From NCBI GenBank assembly GCA_026398695.1, contig JAPLSJ010000082.1, positions 1 to 57,934 of the forward strand: a stretch of 57,934 nt of DNA. Direction: 5' to 3'. The notes below the pieces were generated by a model. That model saw only the letters and a list, made by a program, of their open reading frames with translations. It made no database searches and was not told where the DNA came from. The translations under genes were made by a program, and so were the position numbers. This DNA comes from Arenimonas sp. Lineage in GTDB: Bacteria; Pseudomonadota; Gammaproteobacteria; Xanthomonadales; Xanthomonadaceae. Positions 5,565 to 29,908 of this stretch are shown piece by piece; the stretch's first letter is position 1, and every line of letters begins with the position of its first letter.

Positions 5565-6293
5565 TTACTGGACGCTGACCAGCTTGATGTCGAACACCAG
5601 CGCCTGGCCCGGGCCAACCGGCGAACGCGGGTCGTTGCCGAAGGCCTTGTCGGCCGGCAGGAACACTTCCCAGCGCGAACCGGCGGGCATCATCAGCAGG
5701 GCTTCCTGCACGCCCTTGATCGGGAACTCGCTGACCTTGAAGGTGGCCGGGGTCGGGTTCTGCTGGGCGTAGGTGTTGGCGAACTCCTGGCCGGTCGAAA
5801 CCGAGCCGCGGTAGTGCATCGCCACGGTGCTGGCCTGGGTCGGCTTGGCGCCGGTGCCGGGCTCGATCACGCGGTACTGCACGCCGGTGGGCAGGGTGGT
5901 GACGCCCGGCTTGGAGCGGTTGGCGGCCAGGAACGCGTCGGACTTGGACTTGTTCTCGTTGGCCACGCGCTCGAACTCGGAGCGCGCCTTGTTCATCATG
6001 CGCTGCTGCAGGCCCGTGAGCTGGGCGTCCATCTGCGGCTGCGGGTACTGCGCGGCGCGCTTGGCGAAGCCGTCCTGCAGCGCCTTGATGACGGCATTGA
6101 GGTCGACGTCAACGCCCTGCTGGGCGAGGTCCTTGCCCAGGTCGTAACCAATGGCGTAGCTCAGGACGGGCTTGTTGACCGCGACCGGGGCTTGCGCCGC
6201 CTGCGGGGCGGGAGCCGGGGCGGTCTGCGCCACGGCAACGCCGGCGCTCAGACCAAGGGCCGCCAGACTGGCAGCCAACAGACGCAACTTCAT
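5565..6293 (-). CDS. FKBP-type peptidyl-prolyl cis-trans isomerase, periplasmic
   Basis: A 242-residue protein with a signal peptide (MKLRLLAASLAALGLSAGVAVA) and an Ala/Pro/Gln-rich linker. It then has an FKBP N-terminal dimerisation domain (SYAIGYDLGKDLAQQGVDVD to about residue 130) and a C-terminal FKBP catalytic domain (TGVQYRVIEPGTG, VAMHYRGSVSTGQEF, MMPAGSRWEVFLP, ALVFDIKL). This layout is that of FkpA/Mip-like foldases that assist outer-membrane and periplasmic protein folding. The start at the MKLRL methionine is chosen for the signal peptide and an upstream GGAG. It is monocistronic, with a strong terminator after it. Confidence 0.9.
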   Translation of the reverse strand: MKLRLLAASLAALGLSAGVAVAQTAPAPAPQAAQAPVAVNKPVLSYAIGYDLGKDLAQQGVDVDLNAVIKALQDGFAKRAAQYPQPQMDAQLTGLQQRMMNKARSEFERVANENKSKSDAFLAANRSKPGVTTLPTGVQYRVIEPGTGAKPTQASTVAMHYRGSVSTGQEFANTYAQQNPTPATFKVSEFPIKGVQEALLMMPAGSRWEVFLPADKAFGNDPRSPVGPGQALVFDIKLVSVQ

Positions 6294-23913: not shown

Positions 23914-23941
23914 CATATGGTTCCACTATTCTGGAATCATG
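23914..23941 (+). promoter_or_regulatory. Probable ArsR operator overlapping the arsR start codon
   Basis: An imperfect palindrome ATGGTTCCA (23917-23925), CTATT, CTGGAATCAT (23931-23940) lies against the arsR ATG at 23939. A dyad in this place is typical for autorepression by ArsR-family dimers. Assignment is by position and symmetry only. Confidence 0.6.
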
Positions 23942-24277
23942 GACACAGACACCGCCGTCACCTCCCTCGCCGCCCTCGCCCAACCGCACCGCCTGGCCGT
24001 GTTCCGCCGCCTGGTGGAACTCGGCCCCGAGGGCGCCCTGGCAGGCGAGCTGGCCGAGCACCTGGCCATCCCCGCCAACACGCTCTCCTTCCACCTCAAG
24101 TCGCTGCAGCAGGCCGGCCTGATCGTGCCCGAGCCGCGCGGGCGCACCATCCGCTACCGGGCCGACTTCGCGGCCATGCGCGGGCTGGTGGGCTTCCTCA
24201 CCGACAACCGCTGCGGCGGCGACGCCTCGCTGTGCGCGCCCGCAGACACCCCGGCCCAGGCGTCGGGCTGCTGCTGA
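23939..24277 (+). CDS. arsR: ArsR-family metalloregulatory repressor
   Basis: A 112-residue winged-helix repressor: residues 10-85 carry [17 protein letters not shown], then the recognition region [19 protein letters not shown] and the wing GRTIRYR. The classical ELCVCDL arsenic site in helix alpha3 is absent (this segment reads LAGELAEHL). Cysteines instead cluster at the C-terminus (Cys92, Cys99, Cys111, Cys112), as in ArsR proteins that bind As(III) with C-terminal thiols. It is followed after 29 bases by the GAPDH-arsJ pair, supporting arsenic as inducer. Confidence 0.88.
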
Positions 24278-24306
24278 CTTCCTTTCCCCACCCACGGACC
24301 CCACCC

Positions 24307-25308
24307 ATGCAACTCAAGATCGGCATCAACGGCTTCGGCCGCATCGGACGCCTGGCCCTGCGCGCGGCCTGGGACTGGCCGGACGTGCGCTTCGTGCAGA
24401 TCAACGACCCGGGCGGCGACGCGGCCACGCTGGCCCACCTGCTGAACTTCGATTCGGTGCACGGCCGCTGGGCGCATGACGCCGGCCACGACGGCGACGT
24501 CATCACCGTCGGCGACCGGCGCATCGCCACCAGCCGCCACAAGGCCATCGGCGACACCGACTGGTCGGGCTGCGACGTGGTGATCGAGGCCTCGGGCAAG
24601 ATGAAGACCACCGCTGCCCTGAAGGCCTACCTCGACCAGGGCGTGGACCGCGTGGTGGTCACCGCGCCGGTGAAGGAGCCGGGCGTGCTGAACGTGGTGA
24701 TGGGCGTGAACGACCACCTGTTCGATCCCGCCGCGCACCGCATCGTCACCGCCGCTTCGTGCACCACCAACTGCCTCGCCCCCATCGTGAAGGTGGTGCA
24801 TGAAAGCCTCGGCATCCGCCACGGCAGCATCACCACGGTGCACGACCTCACCAACACCCAGTCCATCCTTGACCAGCCGCACAAGGACCTGCGCCGCGCG
24901 CGCGCCTGCGGCATGAGCCTGATCCCCACCACCACCGGCTCGGCCACCGCGATCACCGAAATCTTCCCGGAACTGAAGGGCCGCCTGAACGGCCACGCCG
25001 TGCGCGTTCCGCTGGCCAACGCCTCGCTCACCGACGCGGTGTTCGAACTCGAGCGCGCCACCACGGCCGAAGAGGTGAACGCGCTGTTCAAGGCCGCCGC
25101 CGAGGGCCCGCTCAAGGGCATCCTGGGCTACGAGACGCGGCCGCTGGTGTCCATCGACTACCGCTCCGACCCGCGCTCGGGCGTCGTCGATGGCCCGTTC
25201 ACGATGGTGGTGAACGGCACGCAGCTCAAGGTGTTCGCCTGGTACGACAACGAATGGGGCTACGCCAACCGCACCGTCGAACTGGCGCGCAAGGTGGGCC
25301 ACGCGTGA
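24307..25308 (+). CDS. ArsJ-associated glyceraldehyde-3-phosphate dehydrogenase
   Basis: A 333-residue GAPDH: Rossmann motif [17 protein letters not shown] at the N-terminus, active-site Cys152 in [13 protein letters not shown] and the C-terminal [11 protein letters not shown]. In ars operons this enzyme uses arsenate in place of phosphate to make unstable 1-arseno-3-phosphoglycerate, which ArsJ exports. Placement between arsR and arsJ, with its stop overlapping the arsJ GTG, supports that role rather than glycolysis. Confidence 0.92.
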
Positions 25309-26516
25309 CAGCCGCTTCGCCGGCGGTGCGCCAGTACCTGCTGGTCACCGGCAACTACTGGGCGTTCACCCTCACCGACGGCGCGCTGCGCATGCTGGTG
25401 GTGCTGCATTTCCACCAGCTGGGCTATTCGCCGCTGCAGGTGGCGATGCTGTTCCTGTTCTACGAAGTGTTCGGCGTCATCACCAACCTGGTGGGCGGCT
25501 GGCTGGGCGCGCGCCTGGGCCTGAACCGAACGATGAACCTGGGCCTGGCGCTGCAGGTGGGTGCGCTGGCGATGCTGGCCGTGCCTGCGGCGATGCTGAC
25601 GGTGCCTTGGGTGATGGCGGCGCAGGCGCTGAGCGGCATCGCCAAGGACCTCAACAAGATGAGCGCCAAGGGCAGCCTGAAAGCGCTGGTGCCAGGCGAC
25701 CAGCAGGCGAAGCTTTATCGCTGGGTGGCCCTGCTGACGGGTTCGAAGAACGCGCTCAAGGGCGTGGGATTCTTCCTGGGCGCGCTGCTGCTGGCGGCGC
25801 TGGGCTTCGACGGTGCGGTGCTGGCGATGGCCGGCGCGCTGGCGCTGGTGTGGCTGGGCAGCGTGCTGTTCCTGAAGGCCGACCTGGGCCGGGCCAAGGC
25901 CAAGCCGAAGTTCCGCGAGCTGCTGTCCAAGAGCCCGGCCATCAACCGGCTGTCGGCGGCGCGGCTGTTCCTGTTCGGGGCGCGCGACGTGTGGTTCGTG
26001 GTGGCGTTGCCCGTCTTCCTCGCTACCCGGCTGGGCTGGAGCCACCTGCAGATCGGTGGCTTCCTGGCGCTGTGGATCATCGGCTACGGCGCGGTGCAGG
26101 CGCTGGCGCCGGCCATCACCGGCCTGCGCACGCGCGCCACGCCCGACGGCCGCACGGCCTTGCGCTGGGCGCTGCCGCTGGCGCTGCTGCCGGCGGGCAT
26201 GGCCGTGGCGCTGGGCGCGGGCCTGCCCCCGGGCCCGGTGCTGGTGGGCGGCCTGCTGGCCTTCGGCGTGCTGTTCGCGCTCAATTCGGCCCTGCACAGT
26301 TTCCTGATCATCAGCTACGCCCGCGAAGACGGGGTGTCGCTGGACGTGGGCTTCTACTACATGGCCAACGCGGCCGGGCGCCTGCTGGGCACGGTGCTGT
26401 CGGGCTGGGTGTACCAGGCGGCCGGGCTGGAGGCCTGCCTGTGGATTTCGGCGGCCTTCGTGGCCGTTGCGGCGGCGGTGTCGCTGGCCCTGCCCCGGCA
26501 CGCCCGGCCCGCCTGA
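25305..26516 (+). CDS. arsJ: Organo-arsenical efflux permease ArsJ (MFS)
   Basis: A 403-residue major facilitator protein with about 12 helices, starting at GTG overlapping the GAPDH stop (GTGA). ArsJ-type segments are [21 protein letters not shown] at the start, [19 protein letters not shown] and [16 protein letters not shown]. It exports 1-arseno-3-phosphoglycerate made by the neighbouring GAPDH, together giving arsenate resistance. No arsC or acr3/arsB is in the window, so this module stands alone here. Confidence 0.9.
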
Positions 26517-26653
26517 GGCCGGTCCGATTTTCCTGAACGCGGGCTGACCGAAGCCGGCGGCCCGCGAACCTCCCCGCCCTGGGGCAGGCTCTTTGGAGTC
26601 ATGACAGCAGGATCATTCCGGTCCATGCTCATGCCGAAGATGCCCACGCACCC

Positions 26654-27169
26654 ATGAACAGCCTGGCCTGGACCACCGACCTGGAAGCCGCCCGCGCCGG
26701 CGACCGCCCGGCGCTGGAACGCGTGCTGGCCCGGTCGCGCCAGGACCTGCGGCGCTACGCCGAGCACCACTGCGTGATCAACGACGTCGAGGACGCGGTG
26801 CAGGAGTCGCTGTTCACCGCCTCGCGCCGCATGATGGACCTGCGCCAGCTCGAGTGCTTCGCGTCCTGGCTTTTCCGCATCGTCAAGCGCGAGTGCAACC
26901 GTCTCAAGCGTGCCGCGCGTACCTTCCTGCATGAACCGATCACCGACGACATCGCCGAAGTCTGCCAGGTCGAACACCGCGGCCTGGCCCGCGACCTGGC
27001 CGCGGCCCTGGAGTCGCTGCCGGCCCACTACCGCGAGATCGTGCTGCTGCGCGACCTGGAGGGCCTGGACATCAACGAACTGTCGCAACGCCTGGGCCTG
27101 ACGCGCGAAGCCACCAAGGCCCGCCTGCACCGTGCGCGTTCATTGGCCCGCGAGTATCTTTCCAGCTGA
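26654..27169 (+). CDS. ECF-type RNA polymerase sigma factor
   Basis: A 171-residue sigma-70 family protein with region 2 (INDVEDAVQESLFTASRRM, ASWLFRIVKRECNRLKR) and region 4 (LPAHYREIVLLRDLEGLDI, ELSQRLGLTREATKARLHRARS), and neither region 1 nor region 3. No anti-sigma factor gene is adjacent. It lies 53 bases upstream of the EGKCG peptide gene and in the same direction, so it very probably controls this metallophore operon. The signal it senses is not evident. Confidence 0.88.
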   Translation: MNSLAWTTDLEAARAGDRPALERVLARSRQDLRRYAEHHCVINDVEDAVQESLFTASRRMMDLRQLECFASWLFRIVKRECNRLKRAARTFLHEPITDDIAEVCQVEHRGLARDLAAALESLPAHYREIVLLRDLEGLDINELSQRLGLTREATKARLHRARSLAREYLSS

Positions 27170-27222
27170 ATCCCGAATCCACCCCGCGGGCCCGCCCGCA
27201 TCATCCAAAGAGAGCGAAGACC

Positions 27223-27618
27223 ATGTCCAACAAGTCGATCAAACCCGTTGTCCTGGCTGCCGGCGCGCTGATGCTGGGCAGCCTGGCCCTGGCCAACTCC
27301 GCCTTCGCCATGAGCAGCCTGGCCCAGGGTTACCAGGTGGCCGGCGCCGAAGCCAAGGCCGAAGAAGGCAAGTGTGGCGAAGGCAAGTGCGGCGAAGGCC
27401 ATTGCGGCGCCGAGAAGGGCGAGCACGAAGGCAAGTGCGGCGGCGACAAGGCCGGTGAGGAAGGCAAGTGCGGCGAAGGCAAGTGTGGCGAAGGCAAGTG
27501 CGGCGCCGACAAGGCCACCGGCGAAGGCAAGTGCGGCGAAGGCAAGTGCGGTGAAGACAAGGCCGCCGGCGCCGAGGGCAAGTGCGGCGAAGGCAAGTGC
27601 GGCGAAGACAAGCAGTAA
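27223..27618 (+). CDS. HvfA-like EGKCG-repeat RiPP metallophore precursor
   Basis: A 131-residue precursor with a signal peptide (residues 1-29, ending ANSAFA) and a conserved [11 protein letters not shown] segment. A cysteine region (48-127) follows with ten EGKCG motifs and one EGHCG. Its eleven cysteines are at 51, 56, 61, 72, 83, 88, 93, 104, 109, 121 and 126, mostly five residues apart, with Ala/Asp/Lys spacers. In Haemophilus HvfA the EGKCG cysteines are converted to copper-binding oxazolone/thioamide groups by HvfB/HvfC, and the MNIO and DUF2063 genes follow here. Product and metal are inferred. Confidence 0.88.
27364..27603 (+). repeat. 15-bp coding repeat array within the HvfA-like precursor gene
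   Basis: Repeated GAAGGCAAGTGCGGC units, sometimes back to back and sometimes spaced by 15-36 bases. They encode the EGKCG motifs. Nearly identical codon use among units (AAG, mostly TGC) suggests recent expansion by slippage or recombination. Confidence 0.85.
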
Positions 27619-27625
27619 TCCGCGC

Positions 27626-28483
27626 ATGACGGCCATCCCTCCCCTGTCACCGATGGCCGCCGGCCTCGGCCTGCGGCGGGCCCTGATGGGCCCGCTGCAG
27701 GCCGCAGCGCCGGGTGATTTCGATTTCCTCGAATGCGCGCCGGACAACTGGATCGGCGTGGGCGGACGCTTCGGCGAAGGCCTGCGCGAGCTCAGCCGCA
27801 GGCACCCGCTGGTCTGCCACGGGCTGTCGCTGTCGCTGGGCGCGGTGGAACCGTTCGACCAGACCTACCTGCTCAAGCTGCGCCGCTTCCTGGACGAGCA
27901 CCGCGTGCCGATCTTCAGCGAGCACCTCTCGTACTGCAGCGACGACGGCCAACTGTACGACCTGATGCCCATCCCCTTCACCGACGAAGCCGTGCACCAC
28001 GTGGCCGGCCGCATCCGCCAGGTGCAGGACGCGCTGGGCCGCCGCATCGCGGTGGAAAACATTTCCTACTACGCGGCGCCCTACCAGGGCATGCCCGAGA
28101 TCGATTTCCTGCGCGCGGTGCTGGCCGAGGCCGACTGCGACCTGCTGCTGGACGTGAACAACATCCACGTCAACGCCATCAACCACCGGTACGATCCGCA
28201 TCAATTCCTGCGCGCCATCCCTGGCGATCGCATCGCCTACTTCCACGTCGCCGGCCACTACGACGAGGCCGACGACCTGAAGGTGGACACCCACGCCGCG
28301 CCCGTCATCCCCGACGTGTGGGCGCTGCTGGACGAAGCCTGCCGCGTGTTCGGGCCGCGCCCGGCGCTGCTCGAGCGCGACTTCAACTTCCCGCCGTTCG
28401 CCGAACTGGTGGCCGAAGTGGCCACGGTGCGAAGCGTGCTGCAGCGCCACGCCACCCCGGAGGCGCGCCATGCCCGCGGCTGA
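27626..28483 (+). CDS. DUF692 multinuclear iron oxidative enzyme (HvfB/BufB-like MNIO)
   Basis: A 285-residue TIM-barrel MNIO. Likely metal ligands and neighbours seen in order are His65 (CHGLSLSLG), Glu99/His100 (FSEHLSY), Glu144 (VENISYY), Asp176/Asn178/His181 ([12 protein letters not shown]), the His of [12 protein letters not shown] and the late Glu in LERDFNFP. These enzymes use a di- or tri-iron site and oxygen to rearrange cysteine into thiooxazole or oxazolone/thioamide groups. It starts eight bases after the precursor stop, so the precursor is its expected substrate. It overlaps the DUF2063 gene by 14 bases. Confidence 0.92.
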
Positions 28484-29237
28484 GTCGCTGCGCGCGCAGC
28501 AGTTCCGGCTGGCGGCGCACATCCGCGACCCGGCGCACGCGCCACCGCCGCCGGGCATCGAGGAGCGCCGGCTGGCGATCTACCGCGACCTTTTCTACAA
28601 CAGCCTGCAGGGCCTGCTGGCGGGCAACTTCCCGGTCATCCGCAGGCTTCTGGGCGACGACGGCTGGCACGCGCTCGTGCGCGACTTCTACCGCGAGCAC
28701 CGCTGCGCCACGCCGCTGTTCCCCGAGCTGCCGCGCGAGTTCATCCAGTACCTGCAGGCGCGCGCCGAGGCCGGCCGCGGCGACAAGCCCTGGCTGCTCG
28801 AACTGGCGCACTACGAATGGGTCGAGCTCGCGCTGGACCTGAGCGAAGCCAGCCTGGCCGACGCGCCGCACGACGCCGGCGGCGACCTTCTTGCGGGCGT
28901 GCCGGTGCCTTCGCCGCTGGCCTGGCCGCTGGCCTACGCCTGGCCGGTGCATCGGCTGTCGCCGGACTTCCAGCCCGACCAGGCGCCGGCCACCGCCACT
29001 TTCCTGCTGGTGCAGCGCGATGCCGCGTTCAAGGTGCGCTTCAACGAACTCAGCGCGCTGAGCTTCCGGCTGCTGCAGCGGCTGTCGGACGAACCCGACC
29101 TGACGGGCCGCGAGCAGCTGCTGGCCCTGGCCACCGAAGCCGCCGCGCCCGACCCCGAGGCCTTCGTGGCGCTCGGCCACGACATGCTGCGGCAGTTCCT
29201 GGCCAGCGGCGTCATCCTCGGCACCCGCCTTTCCTGA
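28470..29237 (+). CDS. DUF2063 MNIO partner protein (HvfC/BufC-like)
   Basis: A 255-residue protein with the N-terminal DUF2063 domain ([65 protein letters not shown]) and a C-terminal helical/beta domain. In characterised systems this protein binds the precursor peptide and delivers it to the DUF692 enzyme as a heterodimer. The 14-base overlap with the MNIO gene supports stoichiometric production. Confidence 0.9.
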
Positions 29238-29248
29238 CGGAGTCATCC

Positions 29249-29908
29249 ATGCGAAACACCCTGAGCGAGCGCTGGACGGCGCTCACCGAACGGCTGGACG
29301 GCGTCGGCGCCTGGCTGGCCCCGCTGGGCCTGCGCCTGTTGCTGGCCTGGGAATTCTGGGAGGCCGGCATCGAGAAGTACCGCGGCGAAAACTGGTTCGC
29401 CAGCATCCAGTCCGACTTCCCCTTCCCGTTCAACGTGGTGCCGCCCGACATCAGCTGGACCCTCGCCACCTGGTTTGAACTGGGCGGCGCCGTGGCGCTG
29501 CTGCTCGGGCTGGGCACGCGCTTGTTCGCCTTCAACCTGTTCGTGCTGACCATGGTGGCCACGGCGTCGGTGCACTGGCCGATGGACTGGCAGACCCTGC
29601 AGGATCTGGCGATGGGCTACGCCATCAGCGACAAGGGCTTTGGCAACTTCAAGCTGCCGCTGATCTTCGCCGTGATGCTGCTGCCGCTGATCTTCCACGG
29701 CGCGGGCAAGTTCAGCCTCGATGCGCTGCTGTCGCGCTGGGCCGGCACCGGCGACAGCCAGGCGCGCGGCGTGCAGGACGTGGCGGCCTGGGGCCTGGCC
29801 CTGCTGGTGGTGGGCGCGCCGCTGGCCCTGCTGCTGCCGACGCTGGGCCTGGGCCTGGTGGTCGTCGGCGCCGTGCTGCTGGCGGCGGATCGCCTGCTGC
29901 TGGCCTGA
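29249..29908 (+). CDS. DoxX-like membrane protein of the HvfA-type operon (HvfE-like)
   Basis: A 219-residue inner-membrane protein with four to five helices and the DoxX signature [21 protein letters not shown], a later [20 protein letters not shown] and [24 protein letters not shown]. DoxX proteins are frequent partners in MNIO RiPP loci; their role there is unproven (redox supply or transport are possibilities). It starts 11 bases after the DUF2063 stop and is the last clear operon member. A C-terminal pair of extra hydrophobic stretches is present (residues 178-219). Confidence 0.85.

Follow-up and report, generated by a model that had tools for sequence, protein, structure and literature searches.

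What does an extracytoplasmic function (ECF) sigma factor do at the head of an operon for a cysteine-rich peptide, and which other genes might it command? The question is raised by a five-gene locus on the plus strand (positions 26654-29908) of contig JAPLSJ010000082.1 from Arenimonas sp. (GenBank assembly GCA_026398695.1); the whole stretch analyzed, 57,934 nucleotides in length, is hereafter called the window. The open reading frame (ORF) list and Pfam/NCBIfam models identified, in this order, an ECF sigma factor, an HvfA-type precursor, HvfB, HvfC and HvfX, which confirmed the arrangement proposed by an earlier sequence-only reading. Its attribution to a Xanthomonadales-type host was also correct, as the window genome (a draft assembly of 2.76 Mb in 137 contigs, with 89% completeness) belongs to Arenimonas, family Lysobacteraceae. 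Judged by its gene families, the biosynthetic part belongs to an already described class, the captophorins, and the regulator is the less described part of the locus. Based on sequence comparison, this optional ECF gene appears to tie captophorin synthesis to the repair of methionine sulfoxide (MetSO). We consider it probable that the operon makes a captophorin and that the ECF sigma factor reads the promoters of its own operon and of msrP, joining copper sequestration to MetSO repair. This reading draws on computed gene families, gene order, linkage, an empty site, a promoter-like element and the tie between that element and the ECF gene.

First, the ECF gene is closely linked to hvf genes and yet optional. 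Among 151 genomes of the order, a multinuclear non-heme iron oxidative enzyme (MNIO) was present in 127 and the ECF sigma factor (E<=1e-15) in 10. In a sample of 198 genomes of the family, analyzed with cut-offs of E<=1e-25 for the ECF and E<=1e-60 for HvfB, the ECF was found in 53 genomes (54 matches, 18 of 54 genera) and HvfB in 142. For 47 of the 54 ECF matches, HvfB follows on the same strand at a distance of 438-884 bp. HvfB was present in 50 of the 53 ECF-bearing genomes, which leaves 92 of the 142 HvfB genomes with no ECF match, although drafts may miss some. An empty site can be observed in another Arenimonas genome (G293, locus L216), where ArsR-GAPDH-ArsJ is followed by hvfABC-rnt and the ECF gene is absent between them. 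The ECF gene is an optional addition to the hvfABC-rnt locus, which is the more widespread of the two. The complete order ECF-A-B-C-X-RNase T was found again in loci L042-L045, L046-L048, L051 and L052, and six further ECF-bearing loci (L037, L049, L050, L053, L054 and L075) have an equal order with HvfX undetected; because the full order recurs, the gene set is not a chance arrangement.

The seven matches located elsewhere were of several kinds. Two genomes (G265 and G269) have the ECF and an adjacent hvfA at a contig end. In G172 the neighbours of the ECF include no detected hvf gene, and HvfB lies on a different contig. In one genus (G221, G246 and, twice, G270), three of the four ECFs have a distant MNIO and DoxX in their vicinity, and the fourth (L210) follows a YgaP-like membrane gene, with an RND-type efflux gene (by eye) close to it. 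In loci L209, L211 and L212 (genus g84), the MNIO is 35-41% identical to HvfB, DoxX is present, gene orders differ and there is no HvfB match at E 1e-60. One of the 47 linked matches (G185:C213:2487-2762) is a fragment with two in-frame stops beside HvfB, and looks as if it were decaying.

Second, a promoter-like element, GCGMAYC-N18-CTCTT, occurs at fixed spacing about 60 bp before the ECF start. Of the 48 regions upstream of ECF genes, 37 scored at least 10 of 12, compared with 1.1 expected after mononucleotide shuffling; of the regions upstream of hvfA in ECF-free loci, 1 of 10 did so. The count of 37 is weak on its own because the element was picked post hoc and related sequences are not independent. 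A matrix was trained on 35 distinct ECF-upstream sites only, with no msrP sequence included. Its best site in the 57.9 kb window is that at 26564-26593 (23.8, compared with 10.4 for the next), which is itself part of the training set. The matrix background in ECF-bearing loci was 5 of 1208 scanned segments, and three of these five precede hvfX: at 10659 in L051 (23.0), at 10674 in L052 (22.8) and at 5635 on the minus strand in L045 (15.2). hvfX looks as if it were separately driven in these three loci. L051 has a further copy (16.4) between the ECF gene and hvfA. A different candidate, the ECF promoter TGCAHC-N14-20-CGTV before hvfA of ECF-free loci, was dropped, as it was found in 0 of 11, some of them placed only approximately.

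Third, the same element precedes genes for MetSO reductases. Among nine sites inspected after a search with the strict pattern, promoter-like copies were seen ahead of msrA in the window genome and ahead of msrP in G075 and G116. We then scored 415-base regions upstream of msrP with the matrix in all 44 ECF-bearing genomes with an msrP match and in 46 ECF-free genomes (17 from the search and 29 of a random 40, of 84). Scores of at least 10 were obtained in 30 of the 44 genomes with the ECF, in 1 of the 46 without it and on none of the 90 reverse strands; the median scores were 14.4 and -2.2 with and without the ECF, respectively, and none of the msrP loci was clipped. Permutation of labels inside six mixed genera (38 genomes) gave p=5e-5, which is the floor of the test. 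Within Arenimonas, the seven ECF-bearing genomes scored 8.9 to 20.4 and the two without the ECF -6.0 and -7.2. The window genome has the element before both msrP (15.7) and msrA (21.9), and 0 of 18 ECF-free genomes reached 10 before msrA, one of them (G178) from a clipped locus.

Several observations weigh against a single ECF regulon. The element was first spotted by eye in the very sequences in which it was later counted; sequences outside that set enter in the msrP and msrA tests only. In nine Arenimonas genomes, seven of them with the ECF, the strict pattern gave 60 hits versus 31 for the backward control, a twofold difference. Almost one third of the ECF-bearing genomes (14 of 44) scored below 10 before msrP, some of them below zero (G259, G171, G235, G211 and G274), and the ECF-free G106 scored 14.7. 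The separation is clean in genera g1, g4 and g100 and not in g10, g74 and g90; some of the msrP sites are located over 100 bp ahead of the match start, and a score of at least 10 before msrA was reached in only 4 of the 12 ECF-bearing genomes examined. The element could instead belong to a different regulator that is co-inherited with the ECF. In that case the biosynthetic operon would be as described, with the ECF a bystander or acting on its own operon only, and the msrP element would be owned by the other regulator. The low-scoring genomes and G106 fit this explanation, as does the fact that the sites are predicted only. However, we regard it as unlikely, as the tie between element and ECF holds within the mixed genera taken together (the above permutation), Arenimonas being one example.

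The preferred reading, with one ECF over both functions, would work as follows. In the cytoplasm, HvfB and HvfC would turn all or most of the eleven HvfA cysteines into 5-thiooxazoles; the modified HvfA would then be exported through its Sec signal and bind Cu(I) in the periplasm, with HvfX as an accessory membrane protein. Transcription would start from the ECF-type promoter GCGMAYC-N18-CTCTT ahead of the ECF gene, most likely read by the ECF itself, and such autoregulation would couple production of the sigma factor to that of the pathway. This ECF would also read the msrP promoter and, in some genomes, the msrA promoter, so that the regulon would join copper sequestration to the repair of oxidized methionine. 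In this scheme we infer the chemistry, the copper binding, the reading of these promoters by the ECF and the signal that activates it.

Regulons of related content are known in other bacteria. In Caulobacter, sigmaF controls YedY (MsrP) and two DUF692-DUF2063 operons, one of them with DoxX, and the msrA homologs are unaffected by it (PMC3511200). The likeness would be an ECF that controls MNIO-DUF2063 operons together with YedY/MsrP, a regulon that for the window ECF is predicted from the promoter element only. On the other hand, the sigmaF promoter is GTAACC-N16-CGAA, the precursors are of the DUF2282 type and the membrane anti-sigma factor is NrsF. In Haemophilus influenzae, RpoE2 controls msrAB, mtsZ and a DoxX (hvf-type) operon, and RpoE2-HrsE and SigE of Neisseria meningitidis share with our prediction one ECF over methionine-sulfoxide reductases and such an operon (PMC7907618). 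However, these have a small anti-sigma partner, co-transcribed with the sigma gene in H. influenzae, and there is none beside the window ECF. H. influenzae further differs from the window in that, by locus tags, RpoE2 is encoded elsewhere and doxX is beside hvfA rather than after hvfC. In Arenimonas, a regulator with a different promoter and no recognized anti-sigma gene appears to command the same pair of functions as sigmaF and RpoE2, which we take as the best hint so far to what captophorins do, namely protect the envelope from metal-driven or chlorine-type oxidation. If true, with a promoter and gene neighbours that differ from both of those systems, co-control of MNIO operons and MetSO repair would have evolved or persisted with no fewer than three ECF regulators that are each controlled differently, which would point to one shared stress, copper-driven or hypochlorite-type envelope oxidation. 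Close relatives with and without the ECF also offer a natural experiment in culturable environmental bacteria such as Arenimonas and Lysobacter.

With regard to novelty, the Buf_EGKCG/oxazolin clusters of PMC12452194 have the precursor class and core genes of the window. In the text of that study (figures and supplements lying outside), sigma-factor genes are reported for Buf1 and not Buf2 clusters, none is named for EGKCG clusters, and a gene with the MsrP-type domain oxidored_molybd is reported in a small number of EGKCG clusters. MNIO-PME1 clusters were found in about half of the Pseudomonadota reference genomes, and the text mentions transcriptional regulators near them in a supplementary table (PMC13097082), in which the linkage of ECF and hvf may partly be recorded already. 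A full-text literature search (top matches; most subscription journals, figures and supplements outside) found no description of an ECF that lacks an anti-sigma gene within EGKCG clusters, or of one in Lysobacteraceae.

How, then, would the ECF be held in check? No anti-sigma gene, including the small zinc-binding type, lies beside it in the window, where linked genes were covered and unlinked ones were outside the search. NrsF was found in 0 of 21 Arenimonas genomes, with Caulobacter as the positive control and other anti-sigma types outside that search; in other genomes, the upstream neighbours of the ECF were not scanned for anti-sigma genes. Restraint by an unlinked anti-sigma factor that went unrecognized here is a minor but real possibility, given that the genome search was aimed at NrsF only, with zinc-binding (ZAS) and other types outside it. 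Nevertheless, nothing of the kind stands beside the window ECF, HvfB follows within 884 bp in 47 of 54 matches, and the Arenimonas genomes had no NrsF. CorE and EcfQ (class 33) likewise have no adjacent anti-sigma gene (PMC8999054, PMC3420878). The window protein, which matches the sigma-70 r2 and r4 Pfam models above cut-off, ends at residue 171 and lacks the C-terminal cysteine-rich extension of CorE; EcfQ was considered as a model and set aside, the shared trait being the absent anti-sigma gene.

Another way to control the ECF would be through its own cysteines. Eight orthologs (the window protein and seven from the protein search) all have Cys40 and Cys81. In a larger set of 81 aligned rows, Cys40 is shared by 48: the window protein, every one of the 45 relatives with an E of 2e-19 or better, and 2 of the 35 with weaker E values. 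In local identity, some of these weaker ones exceed the weakest of the 45. Each row with Cys40 carries Cys81 too. Cys81 was rejected as a special feature, as it is present in 73 of the 81 rows, even in distant ECFs, and was part of one of the two scan patterns. Among the 12 other sigma factors of the window genome, one (L127) has a cysteine at column 40 and none at column 81, with two unreadable at column 40; L127 thereby ruled out that Cys40 is unique to this ECF clade. That the ECF is its own sensor, in which Cys40 paired with Cys81 binds Cu(I) or is oxidized and so activates captophorin synthesis and MetSO repair, is a rather improbable proposal that we offer as a lead, not a result. If true, the members outside hvf loci that follow a YgaP-like membrane gene or have an MNIO gene in the flank would make this a general thiol- or metal-sensing ECF clade.

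The class of the product is suggested by three traits found together: an EGKCG-repeat precursor, an HvfB-type MNIO and a partner of PME type 1 (DUF2063/HvfC). Profile searches, as recommended by the sequence-only reading, placed HvfB (NF003818, 413.8 bits, cut-off 360), HvfC (NF050145, 312.2 bits, cut-off 142) and HvfX (NF050144, 149.9 bits, cut-off 80) in their families. The closest solved chain to HvfB is 3bww (E 1.2e-68), and a 12-residue stretch and a VDTH motif of HvfB align with DVNNIYVNAVNH and VDTH of 3bww. These stretches probably carry the equivalents of N175, D242 and H244 of H. influenzae HvfB, of which the variants N175A, D242A and H244A are inactive (PMC13419390). HvfC matches 3dee (E 2.2e-8). 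The alternative label of a bufferin-type operon did not stand, as the bufferin maturase model NF050167 scored 263.3 against a required 310 (with the 6/12-Cys profile of Buf2 outside the test), and the precursor has no DUF2282 domain. A methanobactin MbnB-type enzyme did not fit either (TIGR04159, 51.2 versus a cut-off of 325), and the partner is HvfC, not MbnC. While HvfA, HvfB and HvfC were all found, no HvfE was seen, and the DoxX protein is HvfX by NCBIfam.

The precursor contains 11 cysteines, the ten EGKCG motifs noticed before and one EGHCG, behind a Sec-type signal that was read by eye. In a Gram-negative host, such a signal leads to the periplasm first, and export beyond the cell, implied by the description of a secreted peptide, is conjectural. 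HvfA matched the repeat model NF050137 (91 bits, cut-off 19.5; E 2.5e-26; five stretches) and scored below the cut-off of the full-length equivalog NF050188 (58.3 versus 95 bits), which makes it a member of the HvfA family rather than an HvfA equivalog; in a Pfam search at E 0.001 it had no match, DUF2282 included. Because precursors in the family loci examined range from 3 to 12 cysteines (some of the lowest counts coming from a start called too late), 11 is high but not exceptional. We also considered whether the ECF goes with the EF-hand type of HvfA and set this idea aside, as no association was apparent and HvfA of either type is found in loci that have the ECF and in loci that lack it.

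Oxazolin (HvfABC-HvfX, H. influenzae) and fontiphorin (FonABC, Fontimonas thermophila) are captophorins, a class of Cu-binding peptides with 5-thiooxazoles made by MNIO-PME1 pairs (PMC13419390, PMC13097082). Both have, like the window, an EGKCG precursor, an HvfB-type MNIO and an HvfC-type partner, and oxazolin also shares the signal peptide and the DoxX gene (HvfX). The window differs from them in having 11 cysteines compared with 6 or 7, and an ECF gene in front. The oxazolone/thioamide groups that the sequence-only reading named for such enzymes are superseded, since the structure of oxazolin was revised and its modification is now 5-thiooxazole (same sources). About 2,000 EGKCG precursors of 31-506 residues and up to 58 cysteines have been collected (PMC12452194); since captophorins have also been described, the peptide and its enzymes are known in kind. 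By analogy, we infer 5-thiooxazole chemistry and copper binding in Arenimonas.

The neighbourhood raises the question of which metal is involved. Directly upstream of the ECF gene (23939-26516) lie genes for an ArsR-type regulator, GAPDH (by eye) and ArsJ (615.5 bits), which form an organoarsenical efflux cluster. A peptide for metal acquisition or for another soft metal (gold, arsenic or zinc), instead of copper detoxification, would suit this position, and for related operons there are reports of a response to gold (PMC5413113) as well as to chromium and cadmium (PMC3511200). We nevertheless think this quite unlikely. Captophorins tested so far bind Cu, excess Cu being among the usual inducers (PMC13097082). 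The arsenic genes are also not constant neighbours: ArsR and ArsJ hold the same upstream place in L043, L044, L047 and L048 and in the ECF-free L216, whereas pstB-phoU (names by eye) precede hvfA in several ECF-free relatives.

Features of the captophorin locus and the evidence for each (positions in the window)
Feature	Position	Strand	Evidence
promoter-like element GCGAACC-N18-CTCTT	26564..26593	+	60 bp before ECF start; matrix scan
ECF sigma factor, 171 aa	26654..27169	+	ORF, Pfam; Cys40 and Cys81 in sigma region 2
hvfA, putative captophorin (oxazolin-type) precursor, 131 aa	27223..27618	+	ORF, NF050137
Sec-type signal peptide of HvfA, 29 residues, ends SAFA	27223..27309	+	by eye
HvfA repeat region, ten EGKCG and one EGHCG, presumed modification sites	27364..27603	+	sequence
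hvfB, MNIO (DUF692), 285 aa	27626..28483	+	family models, 3bww
hvfC, partner protein (DUF2063, PME type 1), 255 aa	28470..29237	+	family models, 3dee
hvfX, DoxX family protein, 219 aa	29249..29908	+	NF050144

By these coordinates, the successive genes are separated by 53 bases, 7 bases, a 14-base overlap and 11 bases; the starts of HvfB and HvfX are in-frame starts inside longer listed ORFs. RNase T follows the operon in the window. A strict copy of the element was also seen about 70 bp before a start codon at position 639 of L256 (Arenimonas G309), ahead of a guessed frame without NCBIfam match.

Outside hvf loci, the ECF lies directly after a YgaP-like membrane gene in L056, L060, L069, L070 and L210, and some members of the clade have genes for thioredoxin and DsbD (L061) or for a rhodanese (L060) nearby. 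An MNIO gene was within the flank in 5 of 35 such loci. In a Roseiarcus metagenome-assembled genome (L088, 7899-10712), an ECF clade member is followed by a DUF2282 (Buf1-type) precursor, an MNIO and a partner-like gene, placing the same sigma type before the other precursor class.

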